NCBI GenBank assembly: GCA_030743815.1
Contig: JASLRT010000097.1
Location: 1 to 37,038, forward strand
Reading direction: 5' to 3'
Length of the DNA: 37,038 nt
Origin: Candidatus Neomarinimicrobiota bacterium
Lineage (GTDB): Bacteria > Fidelibacterota > Marinisomatia > Marinisomatales > S15-B10
Part shown: piece by piece, positions 23,609-26,835 of the stretch
How positions within the stretch are numbered: the stretch's first letter is position 1
Layout of the letters: the number at the start of each line of letters is the position of its first letter
Program-made: the position numbers and the translations under genes
The notes under the pieces: generated by a model
Databases searched by the model: none
What the model saw: only the letters and a program-made list of their open reading frames with translations
What the model was told of the DNA's origin: nothing

Positions 23609-23628
23609 TGTGGACAACCTGTGGACAA
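23609..23628 (-). promoter_or_regulatory. Tandem DnaA boxes overlapping the dnaA start codon
   Basis: Two copies of TGTGGACAACC sit back to back with an 11-bp period. Each contains TTGTCCACA on the minus strand, a canonical DnaA box. The first lies between the ribosome-binding site and the start; the second includes the GTG start codon. One-turn spacing places both boxes on the same helix face. Confidence 0.75.
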
Positions 23629-24988
23629 CCTAAAAATAGATAGAAACGGATTTTGGAATAGAATATCAAAAGAACTTGAGTCAGCTGTGAGTTCTCAGAC
23701 ATACGCAACCTGGTTTGAGCCACTTAGGGCTGTGAACATAGAAGAAGAAACTGTTACAGTTGAAGTGCCGAGCAGGTTCTACTATGAGTGGATAGACAGT
23801 CACTATGGATCTCTGATACAGGAGAAGATAAAAAGTGTGCATGGGCTTGATATGCAAATAAGATATACAGTTGTAGTGGGTGAAATGGATGGTAAAACAC
23901 TTAATAAGGTAAAGAAAATAAGGAAAACAGAAGAGAACGCGGAAGAGAAACAGTATGACCGGGGTAGCAAGCTTAATAAACGATATACGTTTGATTCGTT
24001 TATTGAAGGGGGGAGCAATCAGCTTGCAAAGGCCGCAGCAAGAGCTGTTGCAGACTCTCCGGGACAAACATCGTTTAATCCCCTGCTAGTTTACGGCGGT
24101 GTTGGGCTGGGGAAAACGCACTTGCTACAGGCGATAGGTAACTGCGTTATTAAGAACAGGTCTGAGTGCAGGGCCCACTATACAACAAGCGAAAAATTTA
24201 CACTTGACTTTATATCAGCCATTCAGAACAACAGAACGTCAATATTTTCTAAGAGACACAGGAACCTTGACCTTCTATTGGTGGACGACATTCAGTTCCT
24301 GCAGAAAAAAGAACAAACGCAGGAACAATTCTTTCACACATTTAATGAGCTTTATCAGCAGGGACGTCAGATAGTGCTGACGACAGACAGACACCCGCGA
24401 GAGCTTTATGGATTAAAGGACAGGCTCGTTTCGCGGTTTCAGTCGGGCCTGATTGTTGATATACACGAGCCGGACCTTGAAACTCGTATCGCTATATTAC
24501 AAAGCAAGGCTGAGCGGGACAGGCTGGACATTCCATCTGAAATCCTGGAGTTTATCGCCACGAACATCAGGGGCAATATACGGGAAATGGAGGGGGCGCT
24601 TATAAAACTACTCGCATTTTCATCGCTGTCACACTCTGACGTTACCATGTCTCTAGCACAGAGAGCATTGCGCGAAACTCTTGGAAGTACGGGGCTATAT
24701 AGAATAACAATTGATGACATTATTAGCGGGGTAAGTAGAATGACGAAGGTCTCAGAAAAGCAGCTCACCGGACGGGGAAGAAAGATGGAGGTGGCGCTGG
24801 CAAGACAAATGGCCATGTATCTCTGCCGGGAGATGGTGGGGGCGTCGCTTGAAAATGTGGGGCTTCATTTTGGGGGGCGCGACCACACGACCGTGATACA
24901 CGCTTGTAGGACAATTAAGAGCAAAATGGAGAAAGATCAGGCATTCGCGGAGCAGGTAAAAGGTCTCCAGGCACAAATGGGCGGATGA
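23621..24988 (+). CDS. dnaA: Chromosomal replication initiator DnaA
   Basis: This AAA+ initiator binds DnaA boxes at oriC and opens the duplex. It is 455 aa. Domain I (about 1-85) includes [21 protein letters not shown]. Domain II is a short charged linker. Domain III has Walker [15 protein letters not shown] (about 157-170) and Walker [10 protein letters not shown] (218-226). Domain IV holds the box-binding signature [13 protein letters not shown] near the C-terminus. The GTG start is the first usable start in frame, with GGAG 12 nt upstream. Autoregulation is likely because two DnaA boxes overlap the start. It is divergent from rpmH and 90 bp upstream of lexA. Confidence 0.98.
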
Positions 24989-25049: not shown

Positions 25050-25070
25050 GCGGTAATTTATATACACCGC
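25050..25070. promoter_or_regulatory. Inverted repeat before lexA, candidate SOS operator
   Basis: GCGGT and ACCGC are perfect inverted arms separated by an 11-nt AT-rich core (AATTTATATAC), ending 8 nt before the lexA start. LexA usually represses itself through a dyad at this place. The motif does not match the E. coli or Bacillus LexA box, so assignment rests on symmetry and position only. Confidence 0.4.
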
Positions 25071-25078
25071 ATGTATCC

Positions 25079-25675
25079 ATGTATTTGACAAAGCGTCAAA
25101 AAGAGATATTAGATTATCTAAAAGATTTCGTGTCGAAAAACGGCTACGCCCCCACGTTTAACGAGATCGCGGTGGCATTCGACTTCAGGTCTAAAGGGAC
25201 GGTCTATAAGCATATTAAGGCGCTAAAGAACAAAGGGTTAATTCAGCACGAGTGGAACAGAACGCGCGCAATTGAAGTGATTGAAGAAAGCAGAGAGAGT
25301 AGAATGCTTCCTGTTTTAGGAGTGGTGGCGGCAGGGATCCCTATTGAGGCAATAGGGTCTTTTGAGGAGCTGGAGCTACCAGACTCGTTTATCAGAGGGG
25401 GGAGCCACTATGTCCTGAAGGTTTCCGGCAACTCCATGGTAGACGAGCAAATAAGAGATGGGGATCTTGTAATTGTTTGTGAAAAGGACATGGCCGAAAA
25501 TGGAGAAACTGTTGTTGCTCTGATTGACGGTTTTGAGGCGACCATAAAGAAGTTCTTCAGGCGAAATGGAAAAGTCGAGCTTCGCCCAGCAAACGAAAAT
25601 CTGAAGAGCATAGAGTTGGGAGAAGAAAGAGTTCAAATACAGGGTATTGTTGTAGGTATCTTACGGCGGTATTAG
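25079..25675 (+). CDS. lexA: LexA repressor (SOS regulator)
   Basis: This transcriptional repressor of DNA-damage genes is inactivated by RecA-stimulated self-cleavage. It is 198 aa, normal length. The N-terminal winged helix-turn-helix shows LTKRQKEILDYL, GYAPTFNEIA and SKGTVYKHIKALKNKGLI. The cleavage site is Ala85-Gly86 in VVAAGIP. The catalytic Ser119 lies in VSGNSMVDEQIRDGDL and Lys157 in ATIKKFF. No Shine-Dalgarno is visible ahead of the ATG; the region immediately upstream is AT-rich with a dyad. The gene lies 90 bp after dnaA and 10 nt before the selenoprotein peroxiredoxin, with which it is probably co-transcribed. Confidence 0.97.
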   Translation: MYLTKRQKEILDYLKDFVSKNGYAPTFNEIAVAFDFRSKGTVYKHIKALKNKGLIQHEWNRTRAIEVIEESRESRMLPVLGVVAAGIPIEAIGSFEELELPDSFIRGGSHYVLKVSGNSMVDEQIRDGDLVIVCEKDMAENGETVVALIDGFEATIKKFFRRNGKVELRPANENLKSIELGEERVQIQGIVVGILRRY

Positions 25676-25685
25676 AAAGGAAACC

Positions 25686-26150
25686 ATGATAGAAATCGGC
25701 ACGAGCATTCGAGCGGTTACACTGGAGAACCAACATGGGGAGAAGGTCACGCCTGCCGGCTCGAATAGAAAAGTCGTATTCTTCTTCCCTAAAGCGAACA
25801 CTCCGGGGTGAGCCACTGAAGTGGCCGAGTTTCAGTCACAGATAGAGAAGTTTTCGGAAGAAAGAGTTGACATATATGGAGTCTCAGCGGACCCTGTTTC
25901 AGCACTGCTTAAGTTCAGCGATAAACACAATATTGAGTATTCATTACTAAGTGACTTGGAAAAAGAACTTATAAGTCAGTTTGGTGTCTGGGGAAAAAAG
26001 AAACTTTACGGCAAAGAGTATGAGGGAATTTTCCGCAGCACCGCCATTCTTGATGGAAAAAATGTGGTGACGCACGTGTTTCCAAAAGTGTCACCGAAAG
26101 GACACGCCGACCAGGTCCTTGAAATTCTTCGAGACTTTGGATACTCGTAA
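25686..26150 (+). CDS. Selenocysteine-containing peroxiredoxin (Bcp/PrxQ type), TGA at 25809-25811 read as Sec
   Basis: This thiol-type peroxidase reduces hydrogen and organic peroxides. The frame from ATG 25686 (preceded by AAAGGA) runs MIEIGTSIRAVTLENQHGEK into FFFPKANTPG, then an in-frame TGA at codon 42, then ATEVAEFQSQ to a TAA at 26148-26150: 154 residues counting Sec. In E. coli Bcp the same place is FYPKAMTPGC, so TGA occupies the peroxidatic cysteine. Downstream family features remain: GVSADP, YSLLSDLEKELISQFGVWG and the active-site Arg117 in GIFRSTAILDG. No cysteine occurs anywhere in the protein, so it would be a 1-Sec enzyme resolved by an external thiol. Small hairpins follow the TGA. 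A calling program would start at GTG 25821 and lose the active site. A sequencing error TGC-to-TGA is the alternative. Confidence 0.88.
25812..25836 (+). promoter_or_regulatory. Candidate bacterial SECIS element after the TGA
   Basis: Two alternative hairpins lie immediately after the TGA. GCCAC (25812-25816) pairs with GTGGC (25821-25825) around TGAA. Alternatively ACTGAA (25815-25820) pairs with TTCAGT (25831-25836), giving a 10-nt loop that begins with G, as bacterial SECIS loops usually do. The loop is closer to the TGA (about 12 nt) than in typical elements, so assignment is tentative. Confidence 0.5.
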
Positions 26151-26163
26151 CCTACCTGATAAG

Positions 26164-26835
26164 ATGGACAAGCCTCATAGGCAGTTGGCTTGGAAACTAT
26201 TCTTCAACGCGGTGGCTCAGATGAGTCCTGAGGATGCTGTACAAATTATGGCACCTATCCTCAAGAAAGCCAGTGGTCAAGCTGAAGACCACATGAGGCT
26301 CTCTCCCGAGACAGCACTGCTGTTAGTAATCGATGTGCAAGAAAAGATTTTCGCCACCATGCACGAGGAGGTTGAGACGGAGGAAAACATTAATCGTATT
26401 GTTGCAGGGGCGAAGATATTGAAGTTACCCATTATCTGGACGGAACAGTATCCGAGGGGGCTCGGCCCAACGATCGCCTCTGTTCAAGAGTTACTGAAAG
26501 ATAACGAAAAACTGGAGAAGATCGCTTTCAGCTGTCTCGGTGATGCTGCTGTAAAAGAAAGCTTGCGAACACATAACAGAAAGCAAGTACTTGTTTGCGG
26601 CATTGAGGCCCATGTGTGTGTCTATCAGACAGTTGTTGATCTAGTAGAAGAAGGTTATGATGTCCATTTGGTGACAGACGCTACCATGTCACGAAAAGAA
26701 TCAAACTATCGCTTGGCCGTGACAAAAATGGGGAGGATGGGCGCGCAGCTGACATCGGTGGAAATGGCTCTTTTTGAACTTCAGAGGGTGGCCAAAGGTG
26801 ACACATTTAAAGCAATCGCCGGCACCATCAAATAG
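26164..26835 (+). CDS. Isochorismatase-family cysteine hydrolase with N-terminal extension
   Basis: This 223-aa member of the isochorismatase-like hydrolases (nicotinamidase, YcaC and related amidases) has an unassigned substrate. The triad is visible as Asp57 in LLVIDVQEK, Lys119 in LEKIAFSC and Cys152 in GIEAHVCVYQT. The conserved VTDATMSRKESNY segment follows. The hydrolase fold starts only near residue 50; the first 48 residues (including LAWKLFFNAVAQMSPEDAVQIM) form a helical extension not usual in the family. I chose ATG 26164 because the TTG at 26119 lies within the peroxiredoxin gene in another frame, though neither start has a strong ribosome-binding site. The gene begins 13 nt after the peroxiredoxin stop and is probably in the same transcript. 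Confidence 0.88.
   Translation: MDKPHRQLAWKLFFNAVAQMSPEDAVQIMAPILKKASGQAEDHMRLSPETALLLVIDVQEKIFATMHEEVETEENINRIVAGAKILKLPIIWTEQYPRGLGPTIASVQELLKDNEKLEKIAFSCLGDAAVKESLRTHNRKQVLVCGIEAHVCVYQTVVDLVEEGYDVHLVTDATMSRKESNYRLAVTKMGRMGAQLTSVEMALFELQRVAKGDTFKAIAGTIK

Follow-up and report, generated by a model that had tools for sequence, protein, structure and literature searches.

A lexA-adjacent gene of a Candidatus Neomarinimicrobiota bacterium very probably encodes a selenocysteine-containing peroxiredoxin

The window, by which we mean the whole stretch of 37,038 nucleotides that was analysed, is contig C97 of a 2.1-Mb metagenome-assembled genome (MAG) of a Candidatus Neomarinimicrobiota bacterium, which is 97% complete. 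A single reading frame, here named prxU, runs from ATG 25686 through an in-frame TGA at 25809-25811 to a stop codon ending at 26150, and lies in a cluster with dnaA, lexA and an isochorismatase-family gene. The features of the cluster are as follows.

23621..24988, plus strand: dnaA, the upstream end of the conserved cluster (Pfam Bac_DnaA).
25062..25076, plus strand: ATACA-N5-TGTAT dyad just 5' of lexA, a candidate LexA operator (chance alone would give 0.05 in the window, for a dyad picked after inspection).
25079..25675, plus strand: lexA, ending 10 nt 5' of prxU (Pfam LexA_DNA_bind and Peptidase_S24; TIGR00498, 202.7 bits; conserved neighbour).
25676..25681, plus strand: AAAGGA, a Shine-Dalgarno-like sequence 4 nt 5' of ATG 25686 (from the sequence).
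25686..26150, plus strand: prxU, the probable selenocysteine (Sec)-containing Bcp/PrxQ peroxiredoxin of 154 aa with Sec42 (translation, Pfam, orthologues, PDB alignments).
25809..25811, plus strand: TGA, the probable Sec codon, in the place of the peroxidatic residue (TGA in 60/80 orthologues, TGT/TGC in 20/80).
26119..26835, plus strand: isochorismatase-family hydrolase with a probable start at ATG 26164 (Pfam Isochorismatase, 7.3e-31; conserved neighbour).

Read with TGA as U, the prxU product is 154 aa long with Sec at residue 42 (MIEIG...VVFFFPKANTPGUATEV...RDFGYS), and its Cys count is zero. An earlier note on this DNA had proposed a Bcp-like peroxiredoxin in which the TGA takes the place of the peroxidatic Cys of FFFPKANTPG-C and no other Cys is left in the chain, and these points held up on closer analysis. 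The ATG, the TGA and the Bcp-like C-terminus share one frame, the Pfam AhpC-TSA match spans the TGA (residues 4-130, E 8.9e-26), and solved Bcp/PrxQ structures from the PDB align ungapped to residues 28-149, placing residue 42 on the active-site Cys. The best NCBIfam model is NF006960, thioredoxin-dependent thiol peroxidase (BCP; equivalog), with a score of 127 bits when C is written for U, which falls below its curated cut-off of 140. The PrxQ active-site motif P(K/A/R)(D/A)xTxGC (PMC5302317) is present as PKANTPG-U with Sec replacing Cys, and the same residues form a TxxU motif, T39-P-G-U42, in an AhpC/TSA domain with UGA at the peroxidatic Cys. A mechanical gene call places the prxU start at GTG 25821, which leaves out the active site, just as the note had expected of standard annotation.

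To follow the codon through the order we searched 101 genomes, 92 of which gave a match, and scored the codon on the best match of 80. In these 80 orthologues, each from a separate genome of the same order, the aligned position is TGA in 60 and TGT or TGC in 20, with no third state, an alignment with homologues that agrees with the note's reading of the codon. This bears on whether the gene is instead a pseudogene, an ordinary Cys peroxiredoxin whose TGA arose through a recent nonsense mutation or through a mistake in sequencing or assembly. Our data come from one MAG, and a decayed copy of the gene does sit at the same place in one relative, G003, but the presence of TGA at the same codon in 59 other genomes excludes a sequencing error. 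The remaining prxU frame is also intact, the genome encodes the full Sec machinery, and a hairpin matching most of the bSECIS model comes after the UGA. An error or pseudogene is in the main refuted, and we regard it as highly improbable.

SelA, SelB, SelD and tRNA-Sec, all of which the note had predicted for this organism, were found in the genome. SelA (522.6 bits) adjoins SelB (351 bits), and the tRNA-Sec (67.8 bits) has a UCA anticodon. SelD (L019, G000:C46:37755-38678; 402.7 bits) carries an in-frame TGA at its active site, SHGSGUACKLGPEDL, and is itself a selenoprotein. Judged by eye, no second selenoprotein was apparent among the other in-frame TGAs listed in the window. Relatives carry a second, distant Prx-like family of ~170-190 aa, often with one in-frame TGA (for example G005:C69:14371-14718), and the genome of the window has a distant, stop-free match to this family on contig C101.

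The UGA might instead be read through or reassigned without selenium, or translation might begin only at GTG 25821, in which case the protein would be short and lack the active site. GTG 25821 is indeed the mechanical start, but the relatives conserve the first 41 residues at the protein level, and the sole replacement of TGA in those relatives is Cys. Genes in the window also end on TGA as a stop, which argues against reassignment. A selenium-free product of either kind has, in our judgement, very little chance of being the correct reading.

Cys forms occur chiefly in genomes that lack SelA. SelA is present in 55 and absent in 5 of the Sec-form genomes, against 5 and 15 of the Cys-form genomes (80 genomes, Fisher 2.5e-8, a descriptive value only, as genome relatedness is still in it and independent tree pairs are too few). 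Five Sec-form genomes have no SelA over the cut-off; tRNA-Sec is over its own cut-off in four of them and just under it in the fifth, which points to assembly gaps. Fourteen of the 20 Cys forms sit in reduced genomes of family f15, without SelA over the cut-off, and the tree requires about five switches between Sec and Cys. Two further Cys-form genomes, G004 and G007 (L133, L134), retain SelA and tRNA-Sec. The Sec peroxiredoxin is common in this abundant, uncultured marine group.

Two hairpins can be drawn in the RNA that follows the UGA.

25821..25839, plus strand: putative bSECIS hairpin GUGGC-C-GA-GUU-UC-A-GUCAC with loop GUU at 25829-25831 (conservation, covariation, synonymous null p = 0.015).
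25812..25825, plus strand: competing hairpin GCCAC-UGAA-GUGGC right 3' of the UGA, probably not a SECIS (minimum-energy fold of the free RNA).

The first begins 9 nt 3' of the UGA. The bSECIS model asks for a loop of 3-9 nt with a G in the first two positions, a spacing of 16-37 and an energy of at most -7.5 kcal/mol (PMC13188914); the window hairpin fits it with a 3-nt loop that starts with GU, a UGA-to-loop spacing of 17 nt and a stem of more than 4 bp, whereas its energy of -5.8 kcal/mol is weaker than the model limit. Among the closest relatives, in families f1, f3 and f5, the RNA 3' of the UGA reads GCGACUGA-GUU-UCAGUCGC or something similar. Set against these, the window hairpin carries U-A in place of C-G (changed on both sides), G-U in place of A-U and a single C-A mismatch. 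As a control we slid the pairing partners, upon which pairing in the hairpin dropped from 83% to 19-44%. The remaining families have a second hairpin slightly further downstream, with a stem of approximately GGGAUUC/GAAUUCC and a 6-nt loop of CGGGAU or CGUGAU, which is 92% paired over 49 sequences and shows both-sided changes at four pairs. Under a synonymous-recoding null the window hairpin gave p = 0.015, and p was at most 0.05 in 49/59 Sec forms and 3/20 Cys forms. An Rfam scan of the window returned no match at the gathering score. The perfect hairpin at 25812-25825 was rejected as a SECIS; it lies ~5 nt from the UGA, against 16-37 in the model, and is missing from the predicted folds of relatives. 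It should be melted when the UGA is in the ribosomal A site. The hairpin, the conserved lexA cluster and the order-wide spread of the Sec trait are additions to what the earlier note had described.

With the frame, the family, the residue, the machinery and the conservation of both UGA and hairpin established by the analysis, we put the probability that prxU encodes a selenoprotein peroxiredoxin, reading UGA 25809 as selenocysteine, at about 96%. On this reading it is a selenoprotein truncated by gene callers and recovered from the raw sequence. SelB-GTP-Sec-tRNASec, acting with the putative downstream bSECIS hairpin, would insert Sec at UGA 25809 in place of termination. Sec42 would then react with H2O2 or organic peroxides to give a selenenic acid, and thioredoxin, glutaredoxin or a small thiol would return it to the selenolate in a 1-Sec mechanism. 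Both the peroxidase activity and the external reductant are what membership of the family would predict.

The active site is of interest for what surrounds Sec42. 2-Cys PrxQ enzymes hold a resolving Cys at +5 or +36, and prxU has neither, with A47 and S78 at these positions. Ser78 (+36) stands where Xanthomonas Bcp has a second Cys, which we take to be its resolving Cys. Across the 60 Sec forms no Cys occurs at +5, 30 carry one at +36 and the other 30 have neither; the tree requires about ten changes at +36. In the part that was read, 16/60 Sec forms are free of Cys altogether, prxU of the window among them. As its chain holds no Cys, the selenenic acid of the window protein would, by known 1-Cys Prx chemistry, have to be resolved by an outside thiol.

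The Sec-form relatives read from families f1, f3 and f5 retain the order dnaA-lexA-prxU-isochorismatase, with lexA close to prxU, although in G011 lexA is split in two pieces. The cluster of the Cys forms G004 and G007 lacks both lexA and the isochorismatase gene, and a search of these genomes, which are 64% and 76% complete, gave no LexA over the cut-off. Dyads similar to that of the window (GTAC/TGTAC) lie right 5' of the lexA start in several relatives. The gene spacing suggests that lexA and prxU may be co-transcribed, and control of the selenoprotein by LexA is plausible. It is possible, though we hold this only tentatively, that prxU belongs to the SOS regulon, with LexA repressing its own operon through the start-codon dyad and DNA damage inducing a 1-Sec peroxidase. 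If so, selenium-based peroxide removal would be coupled with DNA repair in Neomarinimicrobiota.

The same setting raises the question of whether prxU, while a true selenoprotein, serves chiefly as a redox sensor or signalling partner within the LexA cluster and not as a bulk peroxidase. Its conserved position beside lexA and dnaA and the lack of a resolving Cys would be in keeping with such a role, but the protein has the complete PrxQ active-site motif and the conserved GI-x-RST stretch, like working peroxidases, and a resolving Cys is unnecessary for a cycle of the 1-Cys type. We consider a sensor role unlikely, and favour a selenoprotein that works as a peroxidase.

Several relatives appear to record the loss of selenocysteine. 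Three Cys forms, G054, G063 and G075 (L087, L089, L083), have kept the hairpin (synonymous-recoding p 0.00-0.01). Their position inside a mostly-Sec clade of family f7 suggests that Sec gave way to Cys recently and that the hairpin is a fossil. SECIS-like remnants in Cys homologues were known earlier from FdhA and a HesB-like protein (PMC1794560). In G003 the gene is present as a decayed copy interrupted by several stops (L141, G003:C98:108098-108493); it lies between intact lexA and isochorismatase genes, and represents a recent selenoprotein loss. Through its Sec forms, its Cys forms, the fossil hairpins and the copy in decay, the order supplies a series for studying how Sec is lost.

Sec-containing peroxiredoxins of the COG1225, TxxU type have been known since 2001-2005. 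According to the citation in PMC13188914, the first was PrxU of E. acidaminophilum (Sohling 2001); 43 genes followed from the Sargasso Sea (COG1225, TxxU; PMC1088965), and 253 sequences from the GOS data (PMC2398784). Our literature search on Marinimicrobia or Neomarinimicrobiota and selenocysteine, made mostly on titles and abstracts, found no report of the gene; an orphan SelD was reported from three SAR406 single cells in 2016 (PMC5029168). The window prxU resembles the known Sec-Prx (COG1225 / PF00578) in its domain, in the TxxU motif (TPGU), in Sec at the peroxidatic position and in having widespread Cys homologues, and differs from them in its Neomarinimicrobiota host and its conserved place next to lexA. 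The window copy itself holds no Cys. With the Cys-type Bcp/PrxQ proteins (Xanthomonas Bcp, PDB 5iiz, 3gkk) it shares an ungapped alignment over residues 28-149 and PKANTPG-x; unlike Xanthomonas Bcp, it has Sec for the peroxidatic Cys, Ser78 at the position of the second Cys (+36) and a residue other than Cys at +5. New for Sec-Prx are its occurrence in this host group, its place in a cluster with lexA, the Sec-loss series, and how often a resolving Cys is missing altogether; through the cluster, selenium may be linked to LexA, the regulator of the SOS response.
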